A stretch of DNA of 64,000 nucleotides, from the NCBI GenBank assembly GCA_036674765.1, contig JARVKI010000062.1:62001-126000 (forward strand), given 5' to 3'. Below, piece after piece: positions 10,672 through 64,000 of the stretch. The position numbers and the translations under genes were made by a program. Positions within the stretch are counted from its first letter, which is position 1. The number at the start of each line of letters is the position of its first letter. The notes under the pieces are model-generated. The model was not told the DNA's origin and searched no databases. It saw only the letters and a program-made list of their open reading frames with translations. The DNA is from Seiridium cupressi. Its lineage: Eukaryota > Ascomycota > Sordariomycetes > Amphisphaeriales > Sporocadaceae.

Positions 10672-11156
10672 GATGAAGGCGAGTCGATTGGGGAAATCAA
10701 CTGGACAAGAAGATCCAATGCGTCTCCAGATGCCTAGCGCAACACCCGCTTATTACATCGAAATGCCAAAGTGTGGCCTCTAGATATCCTTGAGGTCAAG
10801 AGCTTGTGATGACTGGAACTGCATGGAAGCTGCAGCAGGATCTCTAAAATCCCGAAAAGGAACGTGGGGTTTTCAGCGGAGGCATTCCGCCGGCCAGGGT
10901 TGGCCCACCGCGTTAGAGCCGCTAAAGCTTACATCGTAGCGAGCAGCACTACCTATTCCCCGGTGCCTGTCGGCGAGCTGTCGCAGCTCACTAGTCGCAG
11001 CTCCCCACCTTGTGACGTGCCATCTTCAACTTCTCAGTAGCCTTCGCGCCGTGCTAGACGAAGGCAGCCTCATTCCACCGAGCCGCTATGACCTTATGAT
11101 ATACAGTTGCCTGAAGGCAGCGACCATTCGACTGAGCAGAAGAAGACAGCATCAAT
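10672..11156. promoter_or_regulatory. Shared divergent promoter region POP7/RAV2
   Basis: The 485-base region separates the divergent start codons of POP7 and RAV2 and must contain both promoters. No specific operator is recognised. Confidence 0.45.
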
Positions 11157-45260: not shown

Positions 45261-47294
45261 TATTCATGGTCAACGAAGAGGTTCAAAGATAGGCGCCATC
45301 ATCAGGCGGGACAGCGTCAGGTTTTGAGACGCATGCGCGGTTCTCAAGCCATTATGGGCCAGGGTTGGTGATATGGAAATCTGCCAATCAAGATTTGGTC
45401 GCACATTTGTGCGATCAGTCAGATCCAGTCGCGCCAATTATGGGGCGGATTCGATATATCCACGCTGAATTTTAGTGCCGGTACATGCCTGGATCGGTTC
45501 TCAATTCAGGAAGGTCCAAGTTGGTCGGGTCGGGATTGATCGGGTCAGAAAGGGATGTTTCATAGGAAACGGAGTTCAACGGTAATCTGCCCGCTATAAC
45601 ATCCAGTTGTGTTAAGGTGCACAGACCACCACACATGCCCAGGTCTATGATGTCGCATTGATACTATTTTTGAAACTTATGCTGTGGGTCTGAAACCGCG
45701 TATCTATCACACTGCCACATGCAGTAGGTGGCAGTAGATATGCCAATGCTGCTTGGTATCTATGCTGGGGGCAGAGATTATCAATGATCAAAAGGCATTT
45801 ATAGCTTCAGTGGACGACAGAAATTGTGATAATGATCTCCCTATCTTGTATTCGACGGGCGTGTTCGATACCTAAGAACCTAAGGCTGCGGTCGTTGTGA
45901 TGCTCTCATATCAAGACGAATTCGAGGTTGGACTGCTACGATGAACTAGTTATTTCTCGATTAAAACACAGTATGTATTTTCAAATTGTTGCAGGAAATA
46001 AACCCATCCGCTCGTCAGACCCACTAACCAATTGCTTGCGACGCGGCAACCCGACAAAAGACATCACATCTCCCGCCACCTTCTGCCTCTTGTTTCCTCA
46101 ACCTGTTCTTCAAAGATACCATGCAAATGCATATAAGTTCGATGCTGATTGTATTATAATTACTTTACCCTTCTGTTTCAGGCCGCTGCGCGCCGGTACG
46201 CCAAAGGTAAGGGTTAGGCTAGTACGCCGCAGGAATCAACAGAGCCTATAGACCCACATCGATATTCGTCTTACAGGGTTCAAGGTTCATTTCCCACCTT
46301 CGCTATACCTGCGCAGCTTCCACACTAGGCATCTGACGCTTTTTTTATAGAGTTTTCCGTCACACGCGGCCGCGACAGACGCAAAGTCACAATCTGGGAG
46401 AGATCCTGGCTTTCCACCAAGAGGTATTTCCTGTACCAGTTCACGGGCATCACCACCCCTACAATCAAATACAAGAAAGCTACATGTCGGCTACTAGCCC
46501 ACGGCACCATAACTAGCAGGTGCTGGCCGAAGGCGTTTATCGCAGTGCCAGCCTCACATTATCAATGACAGTGTGGCTACTCTTAGTAAAAATTCAAAAA
46601 GGTGCCTGATATTTGGTTATTCTATATCATCGTACTCCGGACAAAGTTGAGCAAGATAGGCGATAAAGACTCTCAGTGCTACTGCAGATTGAGGAGTTAC
46701 ATACGGGCGGCTTCGATAATATCTTGTAACATTCGTTTGGCTTGATATTAAATTGGACCGGGGGCTTTCCTATTGCTAGAAAGTTTATTTAACCATAAGC
46801 CCTACTTTGATTTTGTATTCTCATGGGCAGCGAAGATATAAATTAAGCCAGCAGTGCCTATGCAGATCATTTCGCCCAAGACTAAAGGATATTTATTAAT
46901 TGACTGAATGTTATATTCCACAGCTTTGGATAATCCAGATAATGTTGGTAGTGGGTCAGTCTGCCAAGATGACTTGCGTTATGCACACCCTCCAACCAGC
47001 CGTCTCCAAAAGTGTCCTTAATCAGTATTTGACCCGCGGAGTGAAGGGAGAATAGCCGTCGGATTTGGTGTGACATACTATCTCGTCGGTTCAAGCTTTC
47101 ACTCGCATGCTGTTTGTGCCGAACATTGCCGGTCGAGCTCGGCAGGGGTGAACTAGAGGATACTCGGTTCGAGCGTGAGTACTTGGAAAGTCCATCCACA
47201 AGATTTGAAAACGTTACGATTACCACATAAATGCAAGAAAGGTCCCTTTCCGCGCTGATGATGCTTCCTTCGCACATATATATTTGATGGCATA
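45261..47294. other. Gene-poor region
   Basis: It is AT-rich in part. The open frame at 46882-47298 (minus) lies just downstream of the HET relic and could be its degraded C-terminal continuation, but no motif is visible. Confidence 0.4.
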
Positions 47295-47640
47295 TCATTG
47301 TTCGATTTCGCAGCTCAACTTCACGATATTCTGACTTGATCTTGTCTTGAACAGGCCGGCGCCGTGGTCAGGAGAGTCCTGAGCGGCAAACGCAATCGAA
47401 GCATTTTCGTAGACTGTACACATTTGTGGAGATTCATGCTGCAATTCTGCGATACATTCTTGTAGATCGCACAAAAAGTCGATCCATAAAAAGGGTATAT
47501 TCAATGCCGGATCAACCACAACCCCGTCGCCGCAAGCTTTGGGAAGTTCGTCAAGCAAAATCCTTTTCTCAAAATCCAAATAGGTGGACCTGGTCACTTT
47601 ACCGATCAACCTAATGCGGCTTTCAATCTGTGCTCTTTTT
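47295..47640 (-). pseudogene. HET-domain gene relic
   Basis: The minus strand encodes a recognisable second half of a HET domain: a DELPKACGDGVVV helix, IPFLWIDFLCDLQECIAELQ, ESPQMCTVYENASIAFAAQ and GAGLFKTR, matching the order LP-DA, LWID-LC, E-S-RM-IY-NA, GLF-R of the family. The upstream part with the usual LSYCWG motif is missing, and the frame ends shortly after GLF. No intact start can be assigned. It is a truncated remnant rather than a spliced gene, unless exons lie outside what I can read. Confidence 0.65.
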
Positions 47641-48451: not shown

Positions 48452-50347
48452 CTATGAAATCCTTTTACTGATTGAAATTCCTGTAGTTTCCCCTTCCGTC
48501 TTCGATACGTCTCCCTGTGTTTGAATCTTGAGGAATGGTACAATCAGAAGACTGGTGAAGCTTAATGCAGTCGCTAGTAAAAAGAGCGCGGCGTAAGGCT
48601 CGAAGGGATTGTGAGCATAGTAACCACTAGATGCCGGATTCGCCTTGACGCTGGTAAACAGCGCTGCACAGATACCGAGACCTATGGCTGTGGCCAGTTT
48701 CACGGCTGTTTGGAAGATCGAACTTGCTACTGACTGCTGCGACTTTTCCAAGGAAGAAACCACGTACATCTTCAAGGTACTGTCAGCAAGAGGATCCTGC
48801 AAGTAGCTTTTTGCAGAGAACTGACATTGACGACATTGAACTCAAAGTCAGTCCCAACTACCACAAAAATCAAGGCTGGAAAGGTAAGTGCCCAGTATGA
48901 GATACCAGAGCGTTGAAGTGCCACTAAAAGGAAGGCACTGGTAAATCCAGCGGCGCCAATTGCCATCAATAGCTTGTTCGACACCTTGTGTAAGAGTCTC
49001 CCAGCTAGTATCTTCAGTCTGTTGTTAGCATTGTCCTCCAAGTCGAATTGGGTCGTCTTGCATTTATAATCACCCCAGAAACTGCCGACGGCAACAAGCA
49101 CACGGCAGCTATTAGCGCAGAGTACCCAAAAATATCTTGCAAGTAGAGGGCTGTAAAAAAGTAAAGAGATGGAAATGAGATGAAACCGAGTAGTAGTATA
49201 AGAAGAAGCTGCGAATAATAAGTATTTGAGATATTCATAAGGGGCCTTGTTTAGTTTACTAGACTGAATTCTCTGTCTCGCCAGATATGCATCGGCATCA
49301 AAGGATGCTGGAAGTTCATCTCCCACCAGATAAAAACGGCGAGCAATGCGGGCCCCAGAACGATGAAGACGATGATATATGGCGTTTTCCAGCCATTAGG
49401 TGCATCGGGACCAACGCTTAGTGCTAAGTTAGCATATATTACATCCGTAATTGGGAAAATATTTGAATACCTGATACCGACTGTGAAAAGACCGATTCCG
49501 GTGATCGTCAGGAATGCTCCGACAAAGTCGAATTGTTTCAAGGATTCCATATTCAGAGGGAGTTTTTCGCCGTCATCCGAGGGGACTGTGAAGCATGCAA
49601 TGATGGCTACAACTAGGTACAAGGCGGCAATGAGCCAGAAAGCAGCCGGCCAACCGAATTCCTCTGTCACGATACCAGAAATTATGGCGCTAAAGACAAA
49701 GCCAAGGTGATTACCTGAGCTATAACATGCAAAAGCGTAGTTTTTTCTTTTGGAGGGTTTGTCGTAAACACTCCCTAAAATACCTTGAGCTGCGGGTATC
49801 ATAAATGCCGCAATAAGTCCTATGAATCCATTGAGAATATCTAAAGTGAGGGCGTTACGTGAGAACCCCGTCACCAAAGAGAAAAGCGCGATCAAAAAGA
49901 GACTAATGATCATAATACCTCTTCGGCCGAACATATCTGCAAGCCTGCCAAAGAATAGCATGAATGAGCCCGAAGTTAATCTGCTTGCAGAAGAAGTTGT
50001 AAATCTGTCGGACTCTTGGAAGAATTTGCAGAGGCTTACGAAGATGAAGCCATCATCCATGTCAACTCAGCAGTCGCCATACTGAGATCTCTTTGGATCG
50101 CAGGCCCAACAATGAGAATGCTCCCTTGAAGAAAGCTTGGCATTGCTATAGTGAATGTTGTGGTTATTACAAACAAAACCTCTTGAGCCAGTGACCGGAA
50201 GACTGCTGGGCGACCGTTGGGGTTGGCGGCTTCGCCCGCGGAATCCATAGCGCTTTCGGTATACTGTAGTTGTTGCAATTGCTTCGAGAGGGTTAAATTC
50301 TCATCACACTCCCGTGCCACGCTCTCTATTGGGTCCATTCTGGCCAT
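48452..50347 (-). CDS. 14-TM MFS exporter, cluster transporter
   Basis: Six exons (50347-50040, 49980-49471, 49416-49260, 49208-49062, 49011-48826, 48769-48452) give 541 aa in phase. Intron 4 uses a GC donor (AAT|GCAAGA ... CTGAAG|ATA) with a GCTAAC branch site; the GC-AG choice is forced because no GT donor keeps the family reading GVIIN|ILAGRLLHKVSN. Markers of the drug:H+ antiporter-2 type are LTWMMASSSLTSGSFMLFFG, RLADMFGRRGIMI, MIPAAQGILGSVY, GPDAPNGWKTPY and the C-terminal SSLEKSQQSVASSIFQT. It is expected in the plasma membrane to export the cluster product or give self-resistance. It is transcribed away from the aminotransferase gene. Confidence 0.88.
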
Positions 50348-51156
50348 TAACGATTAAAGCATTGATCATGGAAATAGGTTCTGATAAAGATGGGATGGAC
50401 GCCGTACAAGGAATGACACAAGGAGCAGGATAGCATCAAGGATCGGTTAGATCTTAAATGAGATTGATAATCAATTGTCTTGGTAATCCCAGGCGGCAAG
50501 TCGGTAAGCCACGTTCGGAGGGTAAGGTCAGGAGAAAGCATTGGACACAACTAAAGCCCATGATTCGCTGAGATATGTGACCCTGCATGTGGGTTTGTGG
50601 ATTAAGGTTCACGCACAGCCTCAATGCGTGAGCAAGTCCGGAATTTATGCCTTGCAGAGGGGAAAGATCGGCTGATTTCGGCAAAGGTCTAGCTTTTTTA
50701 TTGACCGGAAGCACGGGTATGTACATAGGCCCCGTAGAAGCTCACCGGTTGAATGTTTACATCTCCCTGTCGGTTGATTCTTCCTAGAGGAGGGTACGAC
50801 AATCGAAACAAACATGCATGATGCGAGACAAACCCTGCAAAGATAAAACTTTAATGCCCGCCCGGCAAATTTACATTACCGATCAGATTGAGCTTCATAA
50901 TTTATGTGCAAAATTGGTGTGGGGCTTTACATCCCTGTGCAAGAGTTCGGAAATGCTCTGATGTAGTCCTCCTGACTACACATTCACAATACAGAAATAT
51001 TGGCAGGCAAGTATTACTTAGAAGTATGTAATATTTATTGAGATTATCAAGATCTAATTTGGAAAAAAAACCTTTCTTTCTGCTTCCCAAAACATAAAAA
51101 TTGGAGGACGACGCTGCCAAGACCATTAGTCGACATTTTGTGCCCGTCGTATCATC
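50348..51156. promoter_or_regulatory. Divergent promoter MFS exporter/aminotransferase
   Basis: 809 bases separate the divergent starts of the exporter and the aminotransferase genes, consistent with shared regulation in a cluster. No specific operator is recognised. Confidence 0.4.
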
Positions 51157-52359
51157 ATGACAGACTTCCTGCCACCCCCAACCAACGCGGTTGACTGGCT
51201 GAACCTAGGAATCAATTTTATTGAAGGTGGGTTGAATATACCTCAATAACCTCGGATAACAAATCATCTAAATTTCCCTCAAGTCAACGGCCATGTCGAG
51301 TCCACCTTTTCGAAAGCCAAGGGGTGCTGGTCGCCACTCCGTTTTGTAGCGGATCCTTACTTACGACTTCATGGAATGGCGCCGGGACTCAACTACGGCC
51401 AACAAGCTCTCGAAGGCCTCAAGGCCTTCCGCGGACCTGGTGATACAGAACTAACGGTTTTCCGCCCCGACTCTAATGCACTACGCATGCAGCACTCCGC
51501 CGACGTGGTTTCAATGCCACAAATTCCAGTTGACATGTTTGTGCAAGCTTGTCTCTCGGCCGTAGCTCATAATGCTTCATTTATTCCGCCCCACGACTCT
51601 GGCGGGGCCGCGTATCTGCGCCCACTGCTCTTCGGATCAAGCCCCCACCTCATGATGTCGGCGCCTGAAGACTACAAATTTTGCGTTTACGTCGTACCTG
51701 TGAGTGGGAGCCGGAGCACAAGCCCGGCAAAGGCAATCATCGCTGAAGGATTTGATCGCACAGCGCCCAATGGCACTGGTCATGCCAAGCTTGGTGGAAA
51801 TTATGCACCTGTATTGAAATGGGCTGAAAAGGCCAAGAACGATGGCTACAGCATAATACTCCATCTGGACAGTGCTAAACACGAGGAGATTGACGAGTTT
51901 AGCACTTCTGGGTTCATCGGCGTCAAACGTTCTGGTCCCGATGAAATCACACTCGTCGTGCCTGACTCCAGGTGCATCATTGAAAGTGTTACGAGTGACA
52001 GCATCATAAGAATTGCGCAAAGCTTTGGGTGGACTACAGAGAAGCGTCCCATCAACTATAGGGAGTTGCCAGATTTTGTTGAGGTCCTGGCTGCTGGAAC
52101 TTTCCTCGGCCTAGTGCCGATACGTTCCATAACCCGACACAATTATCCGCCGAAGCTCTCAAACGACATTGAATCCAGCACGCATTTCAGCTTGGAGACC
52201 ATTACATATATATCCGAGTCTAAGAATGATGGTGGTCCAGTCTTCCAGAGACTCTTCGCGAGGTTACGAGCTTTACAACGGGGCACAGCCGGTGATGATT
52301 TCGGCTGGAGATTTACTGTAACTGCAGAAGATCAAATAGCATGTCCTGTCAGAGAATGA
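51157..52359 (+). CDS. Branched-chain-type aminotransferase (PLP fold type IV)
   Basis: Exons 51157-51226 and 51284-52359 joined over a 57-base intron give 381 aa. The protein is a class IV PLP aminotransferase of the BCAT group: LNYGQQALEGLKAFRG (substrate loop), LRPLLFGSSPHLMM, YKFCVYVVPVSG, and NGTGHAKLGGNYAPVLKWA, where Lys192 is the predicted Schiff-base lysine. SGFIGVKRSGPDEITLVVPD and TEDEQ-like elements follow. Such enzymes interconvert amino acids and their alpha-keto acids using glutamate/2-oxoglutarate. No mitochondrial presequence is seen. The position between the exporter and the NRPS-like gene suggests a dedicated role in making a keto acid or amino acid building block, for example before or after methylation by the neighbouring methyltransferase. 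The C-terminus GDDFGWRFTVTAEDQ is longer than in housekeeping BCATs. Confidence 0.88.
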
Positions 52360-52756
52360 GGTAGCCGTTGACTTCGTAGGGGTCTAGCTTTGTCCTATAT
52401 GGCTTTGGGGTGCTTTAAGGTAGCTTGTTTCACGAAAAGTGTGACTTTCAAATATATTCCCAATAATTCTACAGCCACCTTGCGCTGGGGCAGTGGGGGT
52501 TGGCATGGGGCTTGGTTGCATGGCTAGTGTCCTGTGGTTCTGCTTGTACATCTAAATAGCCAGTCTCCTCATTTTCGTATATTTGGAATGAAACAACGCT
52601 CATTCCCATACTCAAGAGGTGCCTATACGCGCGTTCTCGCGACAGATTGGTATGTATTTTCATTTCTCGAGATCTGATCAACGCCGAGTCAATTTACTTC
52701 CGACGTAGTTAGCGCGCGTCCTTGATAATTGACGTTGGAGCCCTTGTAAGGCTAGT
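52360..52756. other. 3' flank of the aminotransferase gene
   Basis: It includes the terminator region. No gene is seen. Confidence 0.4.
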
Positions 52757-53380
52757 CTAGTACTTAACTAGAATTGGATCAGCATCCCATCCCTCACGGA
52801 TAATTCCCTTCTTTGGTGCTATGTAGCCACGTGTCTCTGCGGCATTAGCTGTAGCAGTTTCAATGATCGTTAAAGATGACATACCTGCCTGTTTCACTGC
52901 CCACATAAGCGTAGAACCGCTGTGCCTTGATGCTTGTGATGGTGGGACTTTGCATTTACACTCAATACTGCGGTAGGCGGACGCCAAAGCTATCTTCATG
53001 TTTCTCCGAACAGCTTGTCGATACGTTTAGGCTTCTAACTGGGAGTTGGCGACCTCTAATATTTTGTTTCTCATCCGAGGCTGTACAAGGTGGATATTTT
53101 ACGAAGTTTCTTCCCCTAGATCTCGCATGACCAAAAGAATGGCACATTTTTCTCTCATAGAAACGCTAATTGTTTAGTGAGGTATCTATCCAATGTGCTC
53201 GATTATACGTATACCGGCCTCAACTGCCGCTGTAAAAGACGCACACCCTTGAACAATAATATTCCGTTGACCCCTGGACAAAGCCCGAAACTCCCGAACG
53301 CCCTTGCATAGTCCCCACCAAGTCACCTGTGCCGTTTGACATATACCCCACACAGTCATGAAGCGAAGCATAGTTGTCAC
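52757..53380 (-). pseudogene. Amidohydrolase relic inside the cluster
   Basis: Two minus-strand pieces in different frames match the second half of an imidazolonepropionase/prolidase-type amidohydrolase. Around 53280-53186 reads GCASFTAAVEAGIRIIEHIG, the equivalent of HAYT..AI..AVEAGV..IEHG with the first His replaced. Around 52950-52757 reads AVKQAGMSSLTIIETATANAAETRGYIAPKKG followed by GWDADPILV, the family C-terminus. The metal-binding His of the N-terminal HxH motif and most of the barrel are absent, and the pieces are not joined by a plausible splice. It is a dead remnant of an enzyme that may once have belonged to the cluster or of an older insertion. Confidence 0.6.
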
Positions 53381-54066
53381 ACATTCCTCTTATTGCGACG
53401 AATATGATCCCACTGATAACCCAAATACATAGATAGGTACTGAGATTTTATGCTGACAGGATATGCTAGTCCCACTTCGCTAAGACGTAGTCTCAACTGG
53501 GAAGAGAAGTGTAGAAAACGAATACAGTCTTGAAGGATTCACGAGCATAGTCGTCAGAGCTCGACAGGCCTCACCTATGGGTATGATAGATGCCATGCTT
53601 GATCATTGAAGTAATGACTGTCTATGTGGCTAGGAAACCCTTCTCAACATACATCTACCCACTCCCTCACTGCTGTTCACTATGGCACTCCGGGCTTGAT
53701 GCCCTAAGTGCCAATAGGGACACTTTAGTCGCAGTGACCCTGATATTCTTGTCACGTCAATTCCTTGCTTGTTCTGCATCATCTTTTGGCTTTTTCGTCG
53801 GAGCTGTCGACCAGTTGTGCAAGTGGCGTATCTACTGTTCTCGGAGTCTAGTCGCATGTGGCCATGTTCGTAACAAGCATCCAAGTCCTGGGAATAGCGC
53901 CTAGTGGATAACGTCTTTGGTGACGTACCACAGCCAAAATATCTGCTTCTTGTCATATCAATTTTCAATCATCCTTCAATGGTACATTCGTGAATGCGCA
54001 CAAAGATCATCTTTTAAAAGCCTTAAGGACTGGGGAAAACACCCGAAGTGGCCCGATGGAAGGACC
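53381..54066. other. Spacer before the NRPS-like gene
   Basis: Only short open frames are present and no gene is recognised. Confidence 0.4.
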
Positions 54067-57000
54067 TCATTTTATGGCTGTGGAATCCACTAGATGAGCC
54101 ATTTCGTGTAGCTTGGGATGGCGAAAGATGGCTGGTACGGTAAGATTAAAACCAAACTTCCGAGCATCTTGCACCACCTTCATGGCTATGATTGAGTCCC
54201 CTCCGAGTTGGAAAAAGCTGTCGTTGAATCCTATCATGTTAGGTTCAATATTAAGAGCCTTCCCCCAAATCTCTAGCATTTGGCTTTCTGTTGGCGATAT
54301 CGTTTTTGGTCGTTGGAAGACTGCTTTCTCAATTGTCCCCCGGTGAGAACTCTTCTCAAGAAGCTTTCGATCAACCTTGCAGTTGTTGTTAAGTGGCATC
54401 TCCTCAAGGATCTCGATAAACTGAGGAACCATGTATGAAGGAAGCTTAGCTTGTAGTGCCTCCAGCAACTGTTTCTCAATACCCTTCCTCAAATCCTCTC
54501 TCATGGGCTGCCTGCTAACCGAGCAGTGAGGCTGGTACTGCTGATCTTCAGTCGGAAATCGAAACAGAGTCCGTCTTCTGCCGTCGGCCAAGGGATATCG
54601 ATGGAATATGGCATCTAGACCTCCACGTTGGGAGAATTGTCGAGCCCAACTGAGTTCCAAGCGGTAGCCTGACGCTATAGCTAGTTCTCCCAAGTCACTG
54701 AGTGACAAAGAAGGTTGCTGCTGAGCCTGTTCTCGAGCCGATGCTATCCAGTCACTGGAGTCTGTGGCCGAGTAGCGTTGATTTCGAAGAAAGTCCGCTA
54801 AAAGCTGTCCGAAGACAGTTTCCCAATGAGGTATATTACAAATCATGACGAGGTCTGATGGATTATCAGATAGTAATAGTCCTAAGAGGGACTGGCGATC
54901 CAGACTATGTTCCCTGAAGTCAATCCACCGATGCGGGTCTATCTCGTAAACGTATTCGCGTGAAGCGCCTGGCTTCGTGACATGAACAGCAGCTGCATAA
55001 CGAAATATACCAGTTTCCTTGCTCGTATGGGTATTCTGGGGTACAATTTCGACGTGTTCTATTTGGTTCGGCAGACGCTCGGTAAGCGCGGTGAAAAACA
55101 CCGGATCAACGAGCAAATCGGACACAGCCAATTCCATGTTTTCAAGTACGCGTTGGACTTCGTCCTTGCGTGCCTTTCCCCCTGTGATGTTTAGTGCCCT
55201 CAAAGCCATCGATTGTCGGTATAAAGCATGTGACCGAACATCATCAAAAAAGAGCATTCTAACTCCCGGAAGTCTCAGAAGGTCCTTGACCATACTCAAA
55301 AGATAATCCTCTCCAGGAACATAGTGAACCATCGATTTCAGAATGACAATTCCAGAGGACTCAAGTGTGCCGAATTGACTGGAAGCTTCGCTGGTGTTCA
55401 ACACGTCAACCTGATACCTGATCTTCGAAATTGACCGAGCCGTTTTTGTGCTGAATTCCTCTGGGCTCAGATATGGCTCTTCAAAAACAGAGGTCGAAGT
55501 GTCGAAAGTTGGAAGGCTGAATATGATCGTCTCAGAAGCTGCTCCTTTCAAGGGCGAAGGGCCAACGTCGCGCGCAATTAGCAGCGGGTCGATACTATCA
55601 TCCAGCCATTTGCCTATTCGCTCCCTACCTAGGGAACAGTGTTCAAGCATTGTCGAAGTGCTGTTATGCATCAAACCATGCTCATTGTCAACCATCCTCG
55701 GCGTTAGGGATATCTGCTGACTGGGCTCGAACTCCAAGCGATGGTTGCGGACCGTCACGAAGCAAGCTATCATTTGCCCTTGACTCATAGTCTCTTGTTG
55801 GATCACAGCGACGGCATTTTCCACAAATTTGTGGCTTCTCAGGATGTGCTCGATCTCACCAAGTTCTATTCGTTGGCCACGAATTTTGACTTGCGCGTCT
55901 TTCCGGGCAACAAAGATCAATCTACCGTCCTCGCGATACCGTACGAGATCACCCGTCTTATAGAGGCGTCCATGCCTTCCAGGCTGGTTTGATGATCCCC
56001 TTAGAAGCCAAACTGGATCCTCAATGAACACAGCTGCAGTCCTCTCCGGGTCATGAAGGTAGCCAAGACCAACAGGCGGGCCTTCAAGGAGGAGTTCTCC
56101 CACGTCGCCAACTGGAAGTAACGTATCGTGGTTCTCGGGATCGACAATCCAGGTGACAAGGCCAACTCCTTTTCCCAGATAGGTAACCTCCTCCGGGCTT
56201 TGTGCATCCCAATTGATGGTAGTGGTAGGAGTGCATTCACATGGCCCGTAGAGACTCATGATGCGCACCCTTCCCCACCATACTTCTACATCCCGTACCT
56301 GAACTGCTTCTCCTCCGAGGAATATTGTTTGAAGACAGGGTACCTGGTCTGGAGACAACAGCTTAGCAACAGATGGAGTAAGATCGATGACGTTCGCATT
56401 TAGAGATAGAATGCTCTGTACGAAATCATCCCGCCGATCGATCTCATTGGGGACGCAAACGCAGCCACCTCCGATGAGAGTTGCAAAGGCGGTGCCTATA
56501 GCCGCATCAAAACTATAGGATGAGAAATCATAGAACCTCGACGTGCTCGTGAGACTCATGTATTCTTTTTGATGGTGCAGCGCTGAAGCGAGGTTTTGAT
56601 GAGTGATGACTGCACCCTTCGGTGTCCCGGTGCTTCCTGACGTGAAAGCCACATATACAGGAGAGGATGGCTTCACGACGCGCGGTGTTAAATGTCTTCC
56701 ATCGTGCAAAATATTGCGATAATCCGATGATAGGGTTATTACTCGTTGCACTAGCCTCAGGCTTAGGCTCTCTTTGGAGGGCGAGGATACGATTATCTTC
56801 GCTCGGACTTGTTCCACAATAGTCTGAAGACGTTGCTCTGGTTGGGACGCATCGAGCAGCACGAAAGCAGCACCCGCCTTCATGACCCCGAGCATGGCCA
56901 CGGTAGTCCACATAGACTTTTCGAAACACAATGGTATGATTGAGTTCGTCCTTGAATCAATGCCAAGGGCGATAAGCCGGCTGGCCAAACACGATGCGAG

Positions 57001-57264
57001 TCGATCCAGCTCGCCATATGTCAGCTCTCCGTCCCACGCACAAACTGCAGGCGCAAAACTTTGTGCTTCTGAGCGCTCTTGAACTAGATCATGGACACAT
57101 TTGTCAATGGAAAGGGGAACAGATTGGTTCCACTCCCAGATTTGCGCCAGATCGCTTTCCGATATATCGGAGGGGATAGTAGTCGTAGGACAGTCGAGGT
57201 CTGTACGAGGATCTTCTTGGCGACCACGTATCTGTGTTGGACTTGATAACATATCATCAGGCAT
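54067..57264 (-). CDS. NRPS-like protein: adenylation domain with embedded N-methyltransferase, then carrier domain
   Basis: Intronless, 1065 aa. Adenylation motifs: A3 at 207-217 (FTSGSTGTPKG), A4 with Asp253, A5 339-345 (YGPCECT), A7 TGDL at 437-440 and A8 452-472. About residues 520-900 are inserted before A10 (957-966, PLNNNCKVDR) and align with the N-methyltransferase domain found between A8 and A9 in fungal NRPSs: ILKSMVHYVPGEDYL (638-655), LFFDDVRSHALY, LLVDPVFFTAL (717-727), HVEIVP and FRYAAAVHV (754-762). The expected glycine-rich SAM motif (EIGTGTG) is absent; the aligned place reads GPSPLKGAASETIIFSLP. The carrier domain carries Ser1024 in FFQLGGDSIIAMK, and the protein ends about 40 residues later, so there is no condensation, reductase or thioesterase domain. 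It should activate an amino acid as a carrier-bound thioester. Transcribed away from the methyltransferase gene. Confidence 0.92.
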   Translation of the reverse strand: MPDDMLSSPTQIRGRQEDPRTDLDCPTTTIPSDISESDLAQIWEWNQSVPLSIDKCVHDLVQERSEAQSFAPAVCAWDGELTYGELDRLASCLASRLIALGIDSRTNSIIPLCFEKSMWTTVAMLGVMKAGAAFVLLDASQPEQRLQTIVEQVRAKIIVSSPSKESLSLRLVQRVITLSSDYRNILHDGRHLTPRVVKPSSPVYVAFTSGSTGTPKGAVITHQNLASALHHQKEYMSLTSTSRFYDFSSYSFDAAIGTAFATLIGGGCVCVPNEIDRRDDFVQSILSLNANVIDLTPSVAKLLSPDQVPCLQTIFLGGEAVQVRDVEVWWGRVRIMSLYGPCECTPTTTINWDAQSPEEVTYLGKGVGLVTWIVDPENHDTLLPVGDVGELLLEGPPVGLGYLHDPERTAAVFIEDPVWLLRGSSNQPGRHGRLYKTGDLVRYREDGRLIFVARKDAQVKIRGQRIELGEIEHILRSHKFVENAVAVIQQETMSQGQMIACFVTVRNHRLEFEPSQQISLTPRMVDNEHGLMHNSTSTMLEHCSLGRERIGKWLDDSIDPLLIARDVGPSPLKGAASETIIFSLPTFDTSTSVFEEPYLSPEEFSTKTARSISKIRYQVDVLNTSEASSQFGTLESSGIVILKSMVHYVPGEDYLLSMVKDLLRLPGVRMLFFDDVRSHALYRQSMALRALNITGGKARKDEVQRVLENMELAVSDLLVDPVFFTALTERLPNQIEHVEIVPQNTHTSKETGIFRYAAAVHVTKPGASREYVYEIDPHRWIDFREHSLDRQSLLGLLLSDNPSDLVMICNIPHWETVFGQLLADFLRNQRYSATDSSDWIASAREQAQQQPSLSLSDLGELAIASGYRLELSWARQFSQRGGLDAIFHRYPLADGRRRTLFRFPTEDQQYQPHCSVSRQPMREDLRKGIEKQLLEALQAKLPSYMVPQFIEILEEMPLNNNCKVDRKLLEKSSHRGTIEKAVFQRPKTISPTESQMLEIWGKALNIEPNMIGFNDSFFQLGGDSIIAMKVVQDARKFGFNLTVPAIFRHPKLHEMAHLVDSTAIK

Positions 57265-58190
57265 TTTGGTATTTGCAAGATATACAGATATTACGGCTCT
57301 TGAAACTTATTAAAAACGGCTATATCCATCCATCATATATATGCCGTTAGGAGTAGTGGCCTTCAGAAGCTGTGATGATAGTGGTAGCACGTTCTCCCGC
57401 GGCGACAAGAAATCTGTCTATATTAATGGCTTCATCTTCTTGCCGTAGGGTCTCCGCTTATGATGCGTAATGGTTGGCATCTGAGGCGGGGAAACACAAA
57501 TCTCGTTCACGGTAACAACATATTCACCGGAGCTTTTGAGCGGCGGAGCACAACACCAAGAGGCATATGGTTGAAACCGGCAGTTTATGGCGTGCGGGTA
57601 TTTTCTTAGTGTAAATTGTATTGTCTTGTTTTTACCTACATTCTGAACCTTGGTCTCGACTAACAACCGTCGGTAGTGACCCCTCGCGGGTCGCAGACGA
57701 TGAGTGCGGATAGCGATTCCCTCAGATGTCTCGGCTGGTTTCTGCCAGTCGGGTTATTTCATGCATGCTGCACCTTTGCTGGCTGATTAATTTACCGCAG
57801 GTGCCGGTTTTTAAGTGGGTCCTGGAATGAGTCTTTTGTCCTACTTTACCACATGATCTTCACAACCGACGAGGTGATCACATACGCTGGTCCACCCTGT
57901 TCCGTTTGATCCCTCTACAATGATATGTGGGAAACTTCGGTATACCTGTACCAAAAGGGCCGGAAAGAATGCTAAAGGCCCCCACTAGACCGACTGTAAC
58001 GAGTAATATCTGATTTAACAACCTGTCACTGTTCTAGAGGTTTTAACAGTCTTAGACCTGGGTATATAGGACACCGATTCGTCTTGCTGCTTTTCTAGCT
58101 CAGTTATTGTTACTTCCCATTCAGCGCCTAATTACCCATTTACTCCACTATCTCCTTCACGCGAGTTATACTGCCAAGCTAGAACTCAAG
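57265..58190. promoter_or_regulatory. Divergent promoter NRPS-like/methyltransferase
   Basis: 926 bases lie between the divergent starts. The region holds several CCG/CGG triplets, including an imperfect palindrome around 57729-57751 (CGGCTGGTTTCTGCCAGTCG), of the type bound by Zn2Cys6 regulators. No such regulator gene is seen in the window. Open frame 57418-57666 (minus) is not supported. Confidence 0.4.
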
Positions 58191-59222
58191 ATGAGTTCCC
58201 TCCCGAACAACACCAAGCATACTGTTGCAAACATCTTCAATTCATTTCTTGCAGCTCCTTCTATTGGGGCTGCGTGGGAAGTGGGTATTCTTGATCAGCT
58301 TCGCGACCAAAAGCGCCTAAATGTTGTGGACTATTCAATCAGGGAAGACTTACACATCCCTTCCGTTCAAGGCATGGTGACGACTCTGGCGATATTCCAC
58401 GTATTGAAGCGCAAGGGACAGCATATCGTACCCGGATCTTTATTCGAAGACGCCTACCAGACGAAGTCTTTGTTCCACTTCATTTCCCTTGGCCAAGGCG
58501 ACGTGTTCACGCGGATGCAGTATAATTTGAGAAACAAGAATCGTGGGGGTAATTTCTATACGAGGGATCCTGCCGCCATCTCATATGCATGTCGTGATAT
58601 CAATGAACGATACATTGATCCGCTGTTCTGGACTGTCATGGATGGGCTTAGCTTTGAATTTTCGGAAGTAGTCGACCTCGGATGCGGAAGTGGGGGAAGA
58701 TTGATGCAGATACTCGATCACTACCCTACAGCCAGGGGAATTGGCATTGATATCGCTACGCCTTCAAACGAAGTAGCTAAAGCCGAGGCATCAAAACTCG
58801 GCTATGCCCCTCGGCTGAGATTCGTCGAGGGTGACGTACTCAAGCTGGATTTTCGCGACGATTTCAAGGATGTCGAACTCCTGACCTGCTTCATGATGGG
58901 TCATGATTTCTGGCCACGTGCCAGCGCCATCGAGACGCTGCGGCGACTACGGGAGTCCTTTCCTAAGATCCGTCGCTTTATCCTAGGGGACACTACGAGA
59001 TGCATCTTGGGCGGGGGTGATCCCAAGTACAGCATCACAGAGGAAGAGGTACCCGTGTTCTCACTTGGGTTTGAGTTTGTTCATGCGCTTATGGGCGCTT
59101 ATATCCCTTCCTTGGCAGAATGGGACGATGCTTTCGCGGAAAGTGGTTGGCGTTGCGTGAAACGACATTTTACTAGCGACCGCCCGCCGGTGTGGGTTGT
59201 TTTTGAACTCGAACATGCGTAA
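58191..59222 (+). CDS. SAM methyltransferase, alpha-keto-acid beta-carbon methyltransferase type
   Basis: Intronless. The ATG at 58191 (MSSLPNNTKHTVANIF, 343 aa) is preferred over the in-frame one at 58107 (371 aa), whose extra residues look like untranslated leader. An N-terminal helical dimerisation part (residues 1-110) is followed by a class I SAM fold: motif I EVVDLGCGSGGR (159-170), GIGID (183-187), RFVEGDVLKLDF (210-221). The segment TCFMMGHDFWPRASAIETLRRL places His238-Asp239 and GFEFVHALMGAYIPSL places His298. In bacterial MppJ a His-Asp pair and a later His (recalled as 243/244 and 295) bind a non-haem iron that holds the alpha-keto acid substrate, so the three ligands seem conserved at nearly the same positions. 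MppJ, SgvM and MrsA methylate the beta-carbon of alpha-keto acids. An O-methyltransferase remains the alternative. Confidence 0.85.
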   Translation: MSSLPNNTKHTVANIFNSFLAAPSIGAAWEVGILDQLRDQKRLNVVDYSIREDLHIPSVQGMVTTLAIFHVLKRKGQHIVPGSLFEDAYQTKSLFHFISLGQGDVFTRMQYNLRNKNRGGNFYTRDPAAISYACRDINERYIDPLFWTVMDGLSFEFSEVVDLGCGSGGRLMQILDHYPTARGIGIDIATPSNEVAKAEASKLGYAPRLRFVEGDVLKLDFRDDFKDVELLTCFMMGHDFWPRASAIETLRRLRESFPKIRRFILGDTTRCILGGGDPKYSITEEEVPVFSLGFEFVHALMGAYIPSLAEWDDAFAESGWRCVKRHFTSDRPPVWVVFELEHA

Positions 59223-59447
59223 CTGTTCAGCTCTTGATTAGACCTAGCCGACATGCGCAAGAATTTGCGCAGGCATAACTTGAATGTGACTGTCGTTCTT
59301 GGTTTTAAGCGGCCTGTCCCCGGTACTATGTGTTAAAAGAGTACAGAACGCTAAATGCTTATTACTATACGCTTCACGCGTCTGCGATCATTTGTGAGAT
59401 AATTCCATAATGTGCTAGATCAAACCTCGTGGAAAGATGTGAAACTG

Positions 59448-59698
59448 AAAAAAAAAAAAAAAAAAAAAAATAAAAAAAAAAAAAAGGCACACGGAATTTT
59501 ATAATCAATATAAAAAAGGTTTTTATCAGGTTAATATTAGTTTAAAAGGNNNNNNNNNNACCCTATTCCTTATTTAAAATACCTTTACCGGTTCTTGGAT
59601 AATTTTTTTTTTATTTAAATAATTTGTTTTAAAAAAACACTTTTAAATTTTTTAAAATTAAAAAAAAAAAAAAAAAAAAAAAACAAAAAAAAAAAAAA
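59448..59698. repeat. Poly-A tracts flanking the gap
   Basis: A runs occupy 59448-59485 (one T) and 59660-59698 (one C). After each run begins a similar sequence, GGCACACGGAATTTT at 59486 and GGCACCGAGACTTTTC at 59699, suggesting two diverged or erroneous copies of one unit. Confidence 0.75.
59550..59559. other. Assembly gap (10 N)
   Basis: Ten N bases mark a scaffold gap of unknown true size between the methyltransferase and amidinotransferase genes. Confidence 0.99.
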
Positions 59699-60447
59699 GG
59701 CACCGAGACTTTTCGAATCTTGACTACAAGGATTTGAATCAGGATAGAATTAGGATAAACGGGACGAAATCATGATTTGCATTTAGGCGCATATAAATTG
59801 TGCCCTGCCAAGCACAAAAATGTGGTCCGTGCGAGTGCTTGATACATTCCGCGTATGTCATCCACAATTACTATCCTTGGTCGTTGTGCAAGAGAATTAA
59901 GGAGATGAGCAGGTCCGGTGAGGTCCATATAACAACAATGATTTTTACCGGCAGATTCCGGAACTTAAATCTGCATAGGCTTTCCCCATGCAGTAACAGT
60001 TCCGGGACATTGTGACTGCCGCCGGGGCGATCCGGCCGCATATGTAATCTTGCGGTTAGTGCATTGCGGTAAAAGCGGTGGGCAATTACGCTTGCCACAC
60101 CGACCTGCAATTTAGCGCCTCAGAGTTTGCTCCTATGCAATAACCGATGATTGGCCACACTGCAAGGCCCTCTCCGGACCATTCTGGAAGCTTCAGTCCA
60201 TGAGCTTTCATCTATCCGAATGTCTCAGTTTAGTGTGCTCCATTGTCGGATGAAAGTCCGACTGTCCTGGTTAGCGGCAATCTCGACTTCGTTACTGTTC
60301 TACGCAGGACTTTTCAACGCACTCTCAACTGTAATGAATACTAGTCTAGATAGTATATGAAACTGCGTAACATTGATCCTGGAACATGTGTTATGGTAAC
60401 GACTCCCACCGCCTTTGGTCTTCTACACCCTTCGTGCCTGATACGGT

Positions 60448-61554
60448 TCATATCTTGTTGCCATTTGGAAGGGATTCTCGAACTAGATCAACAGTAGCAC
60501 AATGAAAGGACCCTCCGATGCTGTTGACATTCTGGAAAGGGCATAGGATAGGCTCCATACCCACTGTTCTGAGCCATTCTGCGAATTTTGTGTCACTCGC
60601 TTCAACTAGAATTCGTTTGCCATCTAGGCACAGAGCGTTCAGGACCAACCACGGGCTGCACATGTACATAGGCGGCTGCGATGGCTTACGCGCCTCTGGC
60701 ACGAAAGGAAAAGGGTGCAACTCCCAGTCACGAAACACTTCGTGACTCCTAAGTTCAGACTCGGATACCCGTTCAGGGTGGTAAACCATAAGCCCTTTAC
60801 GCAGAGGGAGAAGTGTCGCATCAATATGCATGGCGTGCTCATCCGTAGTGTTCAAGAGTTCCACCTTATAGTTTTCGGGGATCAGAGCGCGCAGGTACTC
60901 AACGCCTTTTTGATTGGTAACATGACTCAGTTGACCAATAATGACCTTGCCAAACCGCATGAAATCAGCCGCATCGAACGCAGGCCTAGAGTTGTTGATT
61001 GACCAATGGCTGCCTGTAAGGCTCTCACTGTAGCCATTGCTGCGGGCGTCAGGCTTGGTGGTACCTTCGATATTGTCGTAAATAGTGTCGTGTCCGTTGA
61101 TTGAAGGGGCGCGACAGACAGTGACTGGATCACCGTCGCTCAACTCTAATAGTATATCCGAATAGGCCAGTTCAATTTCTCGGTGGCGACAGCGCCAAGC
61201 AAACGGCGCCGTAATAAGTGTAGAACCAACAGTCATCAGCCCATCTCGTGGCATGGCCCCGGTATAGCCCTGCGCTTCAACCCAATTGACCTTCTTAGGA
61301 CGATATACTCGCAACCCTTCTTTCTGCAATAGGTCCGCCAAGTGGTCCAGCTCCTCCTGAGCTTTGGTGAGGATCTCGGATGGAAACGGCGTTGCAGGTT
61401 TGAAGTTGACCAAATGTTCCGAGGGCATGGTATTTGCCATCATGTGCGGTGGTTCGGAAGGAAACGCCGAGTTCTCGGCTCGACCAACAATAACAGACTT
61501 GAGGGGTGACCACTCATCTTCAGCTGAGATAAGTCGTAGTCCGGTAGAAGACAT
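60448..61554 (-). CDS. Amidinotransferase (arginine:glycine amidinotransferase family)
   Basis: Intronless, 368 aa. It belongs to the guanidino-group modifying pentein fold, close to AGAT. Start: WSPLKSVIVGRAENSAFP. Catalytic residues by alignment with human AGAT (Asp254, His303, Cys407): Asp194 in PAFDAADFMRFGKVIIG, His243 in EHAMHIDATLLPLR and Cys352 in NSIGGSFHCATVDLVRE, with the same 49-residue Asp-His spacing. Other shared blocks are SQLSHVTNQKGVEYLRALI-like residues 208-225 and PWLVLNALCLDGKRILVEA. The enzyme should move an amidino group from a donor such as arginine to a primary amine of a biosynthetic intermediate, leaving ornithine. No mitochondrial presequence is present, unlike animal AGAT. 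AGAT-type enzymes in natural-product clusters are best known from cyanobacteria and actinomycetes; in fungi they are unusual, and the lack of introns fits horizontal origin. Confidence 0.93.
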   Translation of the reverse strand: MSSTGLRLISAEDEWSPLKSVIVGRAENSAFPSEPPHMMANTMPSEHLVNFKPATPFPSEILTKAQEELDHLADLLQKEGLRVYRPKKVNWVEAQGYTGAMPRDGLMTVGSTLITAPFAWRCRHREIELAYSDILLELSDGDPVTVCRAPSINGHDTIYDNIEGTTKPDARSNGYSESLTGSHWSINNSRPAFDAADFMRFGKVIIGQLSHVTNQKGVEYLRALIPENYKVELLNTTDEHAMHIDATLLPLRKGLMVYHPERVSESELRSHEVFRDWELHPFPFVPEARKPSQPPMYMCSPWLVLNALCLDGKRILVEASDTKFAEWLRTVGMEPILCPFQNVNSIGGSFHCATVDLVRESLPNGNKI

Positions 61555-62232
61555 ATTGCAATATAATGTGAAGTTCTTTTTGCAAAGCTCTCGTAGCTGA
61601 GAAATGAACTCGTTTCAAAGCTAAAGTAGGGGTGAAGACGCTAGAATTCCTTATCATCACCGTAAATGTGCCACATAAGATTTATATATATGCGGTACTC
61701 TTAACCACTTTCTTATCTCGTTTATTTCTGCTTCTATCAAGTGTAAGGATCTAAGACCGGCTATTTTTATATAAAGTGCCGAACTCGGAATTTCCACTTG
61801 CACGTGGGATTTATTCCATGACTCACAACATGATAAGCATACGGATTCACAACAAGTTTGGATGCCGTTAGGTCGGCATAGACACAATGACAGCGCCCTC
61901 GGGAAAGGATTGTTGTGCTAGTCGGAACCCAGGAACAAGAATAGTACATCCTCTCTATATAAGTCTTTCAACCATAATAAGAATCGGGAATATTCATTTT
62001 GCAAGCTAGTATTATTGTTTACGGCATAAAATTCGGTCTTTTTTTCGGTCTATTTTTCTCTGGCCTGTATCTTTCTTTTCGCTGACAAACAATCTTCCTA
62101 AACAGCCGATGAGTATTCATCCGGCGTAACGCCTATCCACAGCCTCAGAAAAAGTCATAACACAAATATATCGGACTCGGGTCAACGATCACGTCGACCT
62201 AGTTTCTTATCCTGAACCTCCCGCAAACTATT
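61555..62232. promoter_or_regulatory. Divergent promoter amidinotransferase/P450
   Basis: 678 bases between divergent starts. Several CGGA/TCCG-like half sites (for example ACTCGGAATTTCC and TATCGGACTCGGGTC) occur, but no repeated operator can be asserted. Confidence 0.4.
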
Positions 62233-64000
62233 ATGTCTCCGCAACTGACGATGTACCAATTAGCTTTATTAGTTATGACAATCGCCGCCACGATATGGAT
62301 CTGTCAGCATATCACCAATTGGTTCTGGTCCCCATTTGTTTCAATTCCCGCTGCACATCCGCTTGCCAATTTCACATCTCTCTGGATTGAATGGCAGCGT
62401 TTCCAGGGTACCGATTTCCAAAGCATATCCAAAGCTTTCGCCAACAAGGGCCCTTACGTACGCCTTGGACCGCGGGAGCTTGCTGTCAATGATATAGAGG
62501 CTGTAGGCTGTATATGGGGTGTTGGTGTCGCCGACTTCGACAAACATCCATCTTATAATTATTGGAAGACACTCGGGTATGTGTCATTTTCCCCCACGCT
62601 ACCTTTCCGTCAAGGTTGCCTTTGAGTCTAGCGTATATGCTCCCACTCTTTCGATACCAGCTGATTGATTGTTGCTGAGTAGGACCTCGAACACTTTTAC
62701 ATCTGTGTTAGGCGATGAACACCGTCGCCATCATCGCCGCATTCGAGGTGTTCACAATCGCCTCTTTATTAGCTCGTCGCCTCATGTGCGTTCCATTATG
62801 AGAGTTTTGATGACTGAACGACTTCTCCCTCTGCTCGACCAAATTTCAACCTCAGCTGATGGAACCGCGAATGTACTGCCCATTGCGCAGTCTATCACTC
62901 TTGACTGTACCTCTGCATTCGCTTTCGGGCTCTCTCTGTCTTTGAATTTCATTTTAGACACAGAATCTCGGCAACAGTGGTTCAACTTATTCGGTACTGC
63001 TTTCCCGACCGACCAATCTTCATTTTGGCTAAGGGAACACCCACAGCTCACTAAGTATCTTTGCTTTCTTGGAATTCCCATTGTCTCCCGCAAGACTGCT
63101 AGCGCACGTCGCGAATTTGAGGCATGGGCGCTGTCAAAGGTTGACGCAGCCGAGTTGGTGATGCAAAGACATGCAGCTGGACAACTAATACCAGAAGGAG
63201 ACTTCCCAATACTATACAGTGCTGTCCGAAAGCACTTGGCAGTGTCCGAGAGGGGGCCAGCAAAAGAAACCCCCACACAGAGTGTCATTGAGCGGCGGGA
63301 GCGAGCGAGTGAGTGTCTCGACCATATTGGTACGTTCTCGAAATCATAGACAAAGGCAAGCAATGGGACTAAGGCAGTGTCTTTACGTAAAAGCCTTTAC
63401 CGGCGAAGCATTTGGTACGGTTTATACGTACATGCTATACGAACTCTCACGTCACGCCGATATTCAGCGGGAGCTACATGAGGAACTATGCTCTGTTGAT
63501 AACCCACTCAACCAAGCTGACAGACCGGCTGATATATGCACTTCCGAGACTCTCGAACGTCTTCCTCTCCTAGGCGCAGTCATCAAGGAGTGCCTTCGAC
63601 TCCGCAACACGTCGCCCAACGCCGATCCTCGGGTTACTCCGGCCCGTGGTGTTTCCCGTATCGGCTCTGTTTCTGGTGTGCCCCCAAACACACGTGTATG
63701 CAGCTATGGGTGGTGTCTCCATCGCAATCCAGATGTTTACACCGACCCTCTTTGTTGGAATCCCAAACGCTGGCTTGAGGGTTCGTGTGACAATGCTACA
63801 GCGGCCAAAAAATGGTTCTTCGCTTTCGGCGCTGGTAGTAGAAGTTGTATCGGCCAGAATATTGCCCTGGAATGTAAGGGTTCGTTTTCTCTAAATTGAT
63901 CTTGCAGCGCTAACCATATTGGGTCTTTATAGTGTTCAGAGTGTCTCTAGCTACAGTATACACGCGCTATGCTACCTCTGTCGCCGATGAGTCCAATTAT
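62233..64000 (+). CDS. Cytochrome P450, 3' end beyond window
   Basis: Exons 62233-62576, 62683-63329, 63394-63873 and 63933 onward, in phase, give 513 visible residues; the stop lies outside the window. An N-terminal membrane anchor (LALLVMTIAATIWICQHI) places it on the ER. Motifs: a B-C region with NDIEAVGCIWGVG, I-helix region CLDHIAFTGEAFGTVYTYML in which the usual AGxDTT is replaced by FTGEAFG, ExxR in IKECLRLRN, the meander WNPKRWLEG and the heme-binding loop FFAFGAGSRSCIGQNIAL with the Cys ligand. Microsomal fungal P450s in clusters hydroxylate, epoxidise or couple the product. The I-helix lacks the acid-Thr pair usual for oxygen activation, which may point to unusual chemistry. Its start faces the amidinotransferase gene. 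Confidence 0.9.

Follow-up and report, generated by a model that had tools for sequence, protein, structure and literature searches.

What would a fungus make with an amidinotransferase, a keto-acid C-methyltransferase and a single NRPS-like protein encoded side by side? The question arises at the right-hand end of the window, the whole 64,000-nucleotide stretch of Seiridium cupressi DNA analysed here, where six genes run from 48.4 kb to 72 bases beyond its end on strands -,+,-,+,-,+, in the order MFS exporter, BCAT-type aminotransferase, NRPS-like protein, MppJ-type C-methyltransferase, AGAT-family amidinotransferase and P450 (Table 1). All six have long open frames and appear intact, and the family matches bear out the sequence-only reading's description of six adjacent intact genes on alternating strands. 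A Zn2Cys6 regulator lies to the right of the P450, just outside the window. We consider it reasonably probable that these seven genes, about 18.5 kb in all, constitute a fungal biosynthetic gene cluster, and this is our working model. They likely encode an uncharacterised fungal pathway combining a guanidine with C-methylation, since the pair of AGAT and methyltransferase recurs in fungi and an A-nMT-T relative of the NRPS-like gene is numbered beside an AGAT gene in one Monosporascus. The product is probably a small amino-acid-derived compound, with guanidine and methyl group possibly both on one amino acid.

Table 1. Features of the candidate cluster, with positions in the window
Feature	Position	Strand	Details
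MFS exporter	48452..50347	-	several exons, MARMDPIESV... start, stop at 48452; exon borders approximate
BCAT-type (class IV) aminotransferase	51157..52359	+	exons 51157-51226, 51284-52359; 381 aa
NRPS-like protein	54067..57264	-	1065 aa; Pfam, TIGR01733, alignment with A-nMT-T relatives
Decayed SAM-binding half of embedded N-methyltransferase	55345..55683	-	residues 528-640
MppJ-type keto-acid C-methyltransferase	58191..59222	+	343 aa, ATG at 58191
AGAT-family amidinotransferase	60448..61554	-	368 aa
Cytochrome P450	62233..64000	+	stop 72 bases past window end

The earlier assignments of exporter, aminotransferase and P450 hold in Pfam (MFS_1, Aminotran_4 and p450). MFS_1 matches the exporter exon 49251-50060 (E 5.7e-22), and the match of its last exon is weak (E 0.011, below cut-off). 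The aminotransferase matches Aminotran_4 at E 2.1e-23, stays under the cut-offs of the NCBIfam BCAT models (227.6 of 307 and 195.6 of 250 bits) and contains AKLGGNYAP, which we take to be the motif of the PLP lysine region; its upstream exon is joined through a GT..AG intron, giving a single open frame after splicing. For the P450, the Pfam match falls on exon 63390-63878 (E 1.6e-28) and the haem motif reads FGAGSRSCIG. Its piece 62684-63328 has no Pfam family, its exon borders are approximate, with many models open, and it is without the acid-alcohol pair usual in P450s, which we count against the cluster explanation.

The NRPS-like protein had been described as a stand-alone A-T protein. Its adenylation and carrier domains are there (AMP-binding E 1.2e-53; PP-binding E 6e-12; TIGR01733 354.4 bits, over the cut-off of 317.4), but it is not a plain A-T, since that description missed a degenerate N-methyltransferase embedded in it. 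The adenylation core (about 65-510) is followed by this degenerate region (about 525-770), the end of the A domain and the carrier (996-1059, with motif LGGDSI and its serine), so that some 400 residues of N-methyltransferase-like and linking sequence sit inside the A domain. Identity to eight relatives is 56-72% in the A core versus 17-30% in residues 528-640, the SAM-binding half that most relatives retain, and the SAM motif is SPLKGAASET where relatives have VLEIGTGSGM. No methyltransferase family in Pfam matches the embedded region up to E 0.1. A frameshift as the source of this odd stretch was rejected, as the other two frames hold stops and no matching sequence. On these alignments, our working model takes the embedded N-methyltransferase to be probably dead. 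Pfam scans found no condensation, thioesterase or reductase domain in the proteins scanned, so that no release step is evident, which also counts against the cluster explanation. One relative (P0253), named peramine synthetase in its source, shares the A-nMT-T arrangement. The second module of peramine synthetase is A-M-T-R, whereas the window protein is a single A-T with a decayed nMT. The A-domain code, read by motif, is D A G D F G L P T K; at positions that we presume to follow GrsA, its Asp falls at 278. An Asp there resembles some basic-residue codes and is unlike Phe codes. The predicted structure of the protein has a mean pLDDT of 49 and was left unused.

As regards the methyltransferase, the sequence-only reading had likened it to MppJ, SgvM and MrsA, and of this the MppJ likeness stands and the MrsA likeness does not. 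MppJ is the top phmmer match (E 6.6e-110, residues 35-369 of the 371-residue query; 370.7 bits versus 32.6 for MrsA), with 48-50% identity compared with 18% for MrsA, and it also comes first in a fold search with the predicted structure (E 3.3e-36, 48% identity, TM 0.60); at pLDDT 78, and with a TM to MppJ of only 0.60, that structure served for ranking alone. Grouping with O-methyltransferases had been named beforehand as a refutation; the enzyme groups instead with keto-acid C-methyltransferases, and MppJ, then MrsA, outrank RosA, RdmB and the O-methyltransferases in the fold search. SgvM, itself a keto-acid enzyme, ranks among the O-methyltransferases in that search. Assignment to the MrsA type was likewise rejected, as the match to the NCBIfam equivalog TIGR04543 scores 51.5 bits where 425 is the cut-off. 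The MrsA/MrsB route to beta-methylarginine resembles our model in combining keto-acid C-methylation with transamination and, to our knowledge, has no AGAT. Since a particular resemblance to MrsA is not supported, the earlier suggestion of beta-methylarginine is not indicated by homology.

The enzyme is the single match of its kind in its own genome. Its H238 and H298, at positions corresponding to the iron ligands of MppJ, which we take to be H243 and H295, are invariant in an alignment of 14 sequences. In a tree of the best 120 of 601 matches it falls in a fungal clade of 10 (SH-aLRT 100, stem 0.35). Within these 120 rows, P333 and W335 occur in all 10 clade members and in none of the others, S307 in 10 of 10 versus 1 of 110, and a residue other than Gly at 297, adjoining the iron ligand H298, in 10 of 10 versus 2 of 110. 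At all four positions the clade differs from MppJ, and these sequence differences make a substrate other than phenylpyruvate possible.

The amidinotransferase is an AGAT-family enzyme, as had been proposed. It matches HsvA (E 9.7e-55), human AGAT (5e-51), SxtG (7.9e-48) and the inosamine-phosphate type (8.7e-37), all four along its full length and the first two over residues 9-360 of 368, and keeps the catalytic D104, D194, H243 and C352; the Pfam ADI match, at 21.4 bits, is under the cut-off of 22.8. It differs from human AGAT in having His for Asn300 and Cys for Ser354, by a numbering that we presume and mapped onto the alignment. The pocket has H240 and A241 where the human enzyme has N300 and P301, from which no acceptor assignment follows. 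Because H240, A241 and M242 are the commonest residues at their positions (94, 105 and 105 of the best 120 of 505 matches), the acceptor is probably nothing peculiar to this cluster. Relatives number 505 at E <= 0.001, and the named ones among the best 120 are fungi. The window enzyme, again a single match in its genome, belongs to a clade of 18 of these 120 (support 98).

Whether the two enzymes travel together was assessed on the best 120 of 601 methyltransferase matches and the best 120 of 505 AGAT matches, clustered at 90%. Among the matches listed, four of the five named species in the methyltransferase clade (X. palmicola, Monilinia vaccinii-corymbosi, Monosporascus 5C6A and Zarea fungicola) are also in the AGAT clade, versus none of the 30 named fungi that fall outside the methyltransferase clade (Fisher 9.5e-5). 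The two subclades are thus co-inherited in fungi. In Xylaria palmicola each gene is on a contig of length 446,911, equal length being taken here and below to mean one contig, and in Monosporascus 5C6A their tags are 11 apart (002489 and 002500; 400,919 contig, taken as one); they are 611 tags apart in Monilinia and on different short contigs in Zarea. X. scruposa, of the methyltransferase clade, has no AGAT among the best 120 of 505, and Fulvia, Ascochyta lentis, X. telfairii and X. polymorpha have an AGAT without a methyltransferase among the best 120 of 601. Monosporascus CRB-9-2 has an A-nMT-T gene (003653) adjoining an AGAT gene (003654; 148,509 contig, taken as one), the latter outside the window's AGAT clade. 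Also outside the window clades are the methyltransferase (P0052) and AGAT (P0240) of Hirsutella rhossiliensis, whose A-nMT-T (P0243) is on another contig. Of the co-occurrence raised by the sequence-only reading, then, the pairing of AGAT with this methyltransferase subfamily recurs; the full six-gene set was seen in no relative, in searches that covered the methyltransferase, AGAT and NRPS-like protein.

An AGAT gene also adjoins the methyltransferase gene in 5 of 65 actinobacterial MppJ-like loci, at least four of the five with a large synthetase (C-A-T-C-A-T in one that was scanned). The bacterial AGAT-linked methyltransferases were rejected as the source of the fungal clade, as they occupy a separate part of a quick tree that has one very long row and the AGATs linked to them differ in the pocket (HPMHID versus HAMHID). 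A specific tie between residue 297 and AGAT in bacteria was also rejected: Ala is found in other bacterial rows too, and Gly stands there in one of the five rows that have a linked AGAT.

That an MppJ-type enzyme works in a fungus is known from UgsB of the unguisin pathway in Aspergillus candidus, which its paper places in the same family as a C3-methyltransferase of phenylpyruvate, like MppJ of mannopeptimycin biosynthesis; our comparison with UgsB is by this description only, as is that with AmtA of phaseolotoxin, an AGAT-family member. The window enzyme differs from MppJ in belonging to a clade that in other fungi occurs with an AGAT. The open-access literature searched, with subscription papers mostly outside it, yielded no characterised fungal AGAT-family enzyme, and from fungi neither an AGAT cluster nor one with MppJ-type and AGAT genes together (including PMC12113358, PMC3612039, PMC10502145, PMC10635010, PMC9113183, PMC6723126, PMC3202874 and PMC10967133, as far as their accessible text goes). 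The cluster links a fungal AGAT to a keto-acid methyltransferase whose active site is distinct; it offers a handle on the role of these enzymes and points to what may be a new class of fungal metabolites carrying a guanidine.

For the joint action of all seven genes, their substrates, the order of steps and the product, we infer the following. The AGAT would take an amidino group from arginine and pass it to an amine; the MppJ-type enzyme would methylate C3 of an alpha-keto acid by means of a non-haem iron with H238 and H298 as ligands; the BCAT-type enzyme would convert keto acid to amino acid; the A-T protein would adenylate an amino acid and hold it as a thioester; the P450 would oxidise and the MFS protein export. 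Guanidine and methyl group could come to sit on one residue, with AGAT making an omega-guanidino amino acid (e.g. homoarginine), BCAT giving its keto acid, C3 methylation and re-amination by BCAT following, and the A-T loading the beta-methyl guanidino product. A changed methyltransferase substrate would need residue changes of the kind seen in the clade that travels with AGAT, which departs from MppJ and most rows next to the iron ligand and within the C-terminal strand; the Asp in the A-domain code agrees with such a residue, and MrsA, whose structure was solved with ketoarginine according to its PDB title, is a precedent for this type of reaction. However, the closest characterised enzymes, MppJ and UgsB, take phenylpyruvate and MrsA is distant, the AGAT pocket is of the commonest type with a probably unremarkable acceptor, and A-domain codes transfer weakly to fungi, so that we regard this sequence of events as somewhat unlikely. 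We hold as unlikely its fuller form, in which the keto acid of an AGAT-built guanidino amino acid is C-methylated by the new MppJ subfamily, a beta-methyl homoarginine-like residue is loaded on the single A-T, and C-methylation has taken the place of an N-methylation once performed by the ancestral A-nMT-T and since lost. Alternatively, the methyltransferase and BCAT might supply an amino acid with a beta-methyl group, either aromatic (beta-methylphenylalanine, as with UgsB) or aliphatic (beta-methyl-leucine, as with SgvM), and the AGAT and A-T a guanidino unit, to be joined by an outside enzyme. UgsB activity on phenylpyruvate, the reported action of SgvM on alpha-ketoleucine, which suits a BCAT, and the synthetases at the actinobacterial loci speak for two such blocks; the want of a condensation domain in the proteins scanned and the movement of the fungal clade away from MppJ residues speak against them, and we entertain the idea tentatively, as a fair-sized minority chance.

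The A-T could also act in trans, as the starter module of a large synthetase encoded at another place in the genome, which is rich in NRPS genes, the cluster being half of a split pathway. A precedent for a fungal stand-alone A-T protein is fusaoctaxin B of Fusarium graminearum (NRPS9 and NRPS5), where NRPS9 loads a guanidino acid according to the section on its biosynthesis (PMC10967133); of 54 matches in the genome, 43 represent further A-domain stretches, a few of which may belong together as parts of a single domain, and a second BCAT gene, 58% identical, lies at C7:490693 near synthetase stretches C7:462803-487929. Yet no partner synthetase was identified, the two fusaoctaxin synthetases share a single cluster, and in that pathway a P450, a PLP lyase and an amidohydrolase, rather than an AGAT, produce the guanidinoacetate, that section mentioning no C-methyltransferase (PMC10967133); we find such a split rather doubtful. 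It is quite improbable, finally, that mere chance has placed a decaying A-nMT-T gene next to an AGAT-methyltransferase pair with which it has nothing to do. The decay of the N-methyltransferase half and the six-gene set not seen in relatives would suit this, but the window gene still has its A core, its carrier motif and an open frame, the A-nMT-T and AGAT genes of Monosporascus CRB-9-2 carry consecutive tags, and a regulator and an exporter flank the gene set.

The window (positions 62001–126000 of contig C62) comes from a genome of 45.4 Mb in 228 contigs, probably that of an ascomycete judging by its introns and by the relatives with names. It carries six genes which, with their neighbors, are collected in the table below. 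The set of six on alternating strands that the sequence-only reading described is real, with every gene present, and probably constitutes a biosynthetic cluster; its gene families are recognizable and its frames open, and the catalytic residues of the AGAT and the iron-ligand positions of the methyltransferase are in place. The Zn2Cys6 gene beyond the right edge is likely the regulator of the cluster, and one of its exons matches Fungal_trans at 21.1 bits, slightly under the gathering score of 23. No further gene was seen between ~3 kb of L009 (the sequence directly right of the window) and the tyrosinase-like gene in L010. Counting the regulator in, we use a working boundary of ~18.5 kb. The gene combination was not found described in the open-access literature searched.

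Features of the cluster, its surroundings and related loci
Feature	Location	Strand	Remark
MFS exporter, BCAT-type aminotransferase, NRPS-like protein, MppJ-type methyltransferase, AGAT-family amidinotransferase, P450 (in order)	48,452–64,072	alternating	right end 72 bases beyond window
Zn2Cys6 transcription factor gene	L009 ~465–2925, just right of window	minus	Cys motif by eye; Fungal_trans-like stretch
Tyrosinase-like gene	L010 ~7.5–9 kb		by eye
Hydrolase-like gene	44028–45260, left of cluster		by eye
Apparent fragments of a second HET-like gene	46882–47609, left of cluster		by eye
HET-like gene	37433–39139, left of cluster		by eye
Second BCAT-type gene	contig C7:490693–491719		58% identity to cluster BCAT in first piece
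Large synthetase stretches	contig C7:462803–487929		near second BCAT-type gene
Five AGAT-linked actinobacterial loci	L049, L056, L068, L074 (about 8400–10990), L071 (about 1022–3589)		

The methyltransferase had been read as a keto-acid C-methyltransferase like MppJ, SgvM or MrsA (2-ketoarginine methyltransferase), with the MrsA route as the model for its chemistry. The class is correct, as MppJ is the top match in both the PDB sequence search (E 6.6e-110) and the fold search (E 3.3e-36, 48–50% identity), but the MrsA likeness was not borne out: MrsA is matched at E 3.8e-7 in the sequence search and ranks second in the fold search (E 9.4e-18, 18% identity), followed by RosA and RdmB and then SgvM (E 8.9e-16), and the NCBIfam ketoarginine equivalog model gives a score of 51.5 where its cut-off would require 425. 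With MppJ far ahead of MrsA and the equivalog below its cut-off, we therefore assign the enzyme to the MppJ type. UgsB of Aspergillus candidus, a fungal enzyme described in print as MppJ-type, has been shown to methylate phenylpyruvate (PMC12113358), and a 2013 study reported horizontal acquisition of an MppJ homolog in Pyrenophora tritici-repentis (PMC3612039). The actinobacterial methyltransferase of Kibdelosporangium aridum (P0010, locus L030) is 59% identical to that of the window and is placed among fungal sequences in trees. Alternaria gaisen P0092 is also MppJ-type, and might account for the beta-methylphenylalanine that is a constituent of AK-toxin I.

When the best 120 of 601 homologs were placed in a tree, the methyltransferase of the window fell within a clade of 10 (SH-aLRT 100, stem 0.35) with Xylaria palmicola, X. 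scruposa, Monilinia vaccinii-corymbosi, Zarea fungicola, Monosporascus 5C6A and four further rows. Among these 120, Pro333 and Trp335 occur in 10/10 clade members and 0/110 other sequences, Ser307 in 10/10 versus 1/110, and position 297, directly before iron ligand H298, is Val, Ala, Ile or Lys in the clade and Gly in 108/110 others. MppJ itself aligns with the majority residues at these sites. Such clade-specific residues might fit an altered substrate, without indicating which.

Full-length matches of the amidinotransferase include HsvA, human AGAT, SxtG and one inosamine-phosphate amidinotransferase. Across the best 120 of 505 homologs, D104, D194, H243 and C352 are conserved in 118 to 120 rows, while human N300, P301 and M302 align with H240, A241 and M242, each the most frequent residue at its position (94, 105 and 105 of 120). 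Several homologs are labelled lysine amidinotransferase in their source records, and no test of that label was found for them. In the tree of these 120, the window AGAT lies within a clade of 18 (SH-aLRT 98) that includes X. palmicola, X. telfairii, X. polymorpha, Monilinia vaccinii-corymbosi, Monosporascus 5C6A, Zarea, Fulvia fulva and Ascochyta lentis.

The AGAT and methyltransferase subclades are co-inherited. Among the listed matches, an AGAT from the clade of 18 is present in 4/5 named species of the methyltransferase clade (the exception being X. scruposa) and in none of the 30 other named fungi on the methyltransferase list; one of those 30, Hirsutella rhossiliensis, has an AGAT outside the clade of 18. 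Counted by hand, this gives a Fisher value of 9.5e-5, which is indicative only because both lists are the best 120 (of 601 and of 505), ordered by likeness to the window. Equal contig sizes for the two genes in X. palmicola (446,911) and Monosporascus 5C6A (400,919, tags 11 apart) led us to take each pair as lying on one contig; in Monilinia they are 611 tags apart on one 6.2 Mb contig, and in Zarea on two separate short contigs.

The NRPS-like protein (1065 aa) has an A-(nMT)-T architecture in which the embedded N-methyltransferase domain has decayed. In an alignment with 11 relatives, identities were computed against eight, two of them partial: the A core is 56–72% identical, whereas the SAM-binding half of the nMT is 17–30% identical, compared with 37–84% among the eight themselves. 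SPLKGAASET stands where 10/11 relatives have VLEIGTGSGM, small changes allowed; the eleventh, P0242, which is also the top match, reads IPGIGTGSEM, a possible intermediate. Up to E 0.1 the window protein yields no methyltransferase Pfam family; of seven relatives in the same scan six do, partly under gathering scores, whereas P0242 does not. Both the motifs of the A domain and the Ser of the carrier domain are retained. At what we take to be the GrsA positions, the A-domain code by motif from the alignment is D A G D F G L P T K, in which Asp at 278 resembles some basic-residue codes, a weak hint from sequence. In Monosporascus CRB-9-2, the tag of the relative P0246 (DL770_003653, intact nMT motif) directly precedes that of an AGAT (DL770_003654), with equal contig size for the two, and therefore A-nMT-T and AGAT also co-occur.

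In our working model, a guanidino compound would come from the AGAT and a beta-methyl amino acid from the methyltransferase and BCAT, and the A-T protein would activate one of the two; the P450 would oxidize and the MFS protein export, with no candidate enzyme for release within the gene set. The specific product proposed from sequence alone, a guanidino-bearing, beta-methylated amino acid, is possible, but homology to an MppJ-type rather than MrsA-type enzyme gives it no support. Loading of a guanidino acid by a stand-alone A-T is described for fusaoctaxin B, where, however, guanidinoacetate arises without an AGAT (PMC10967133). In the P450 exon at 63390–63878, TGEAFGT replaces the acid-alcohol pair usual in the I-helix, so its chemistry may be unusual.

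A parallel arrangement occurs in bacteria. A survey of 84,980 species of bacteria and archaea, each represented by a single genome, detected 65 MppJ-like loci in actinobacteria; at five of them an AGAT gene lies divergently beside the methyltransferase gene. At least four of the five also have a large synthetase match (frame ~2130–2290 aa); the one scanned, from Nocardiopsis ansamitocini, is C-A-T-C-A-T, so that condensation, adenylation and carrier domains each occur twice. Because the AGAT-linked bacterial methyltransferases sit apart from the fungal clade in the tree and their AGATs have a pocket unlike that of the window AGAT, the pairing may have arisen repeatedly.
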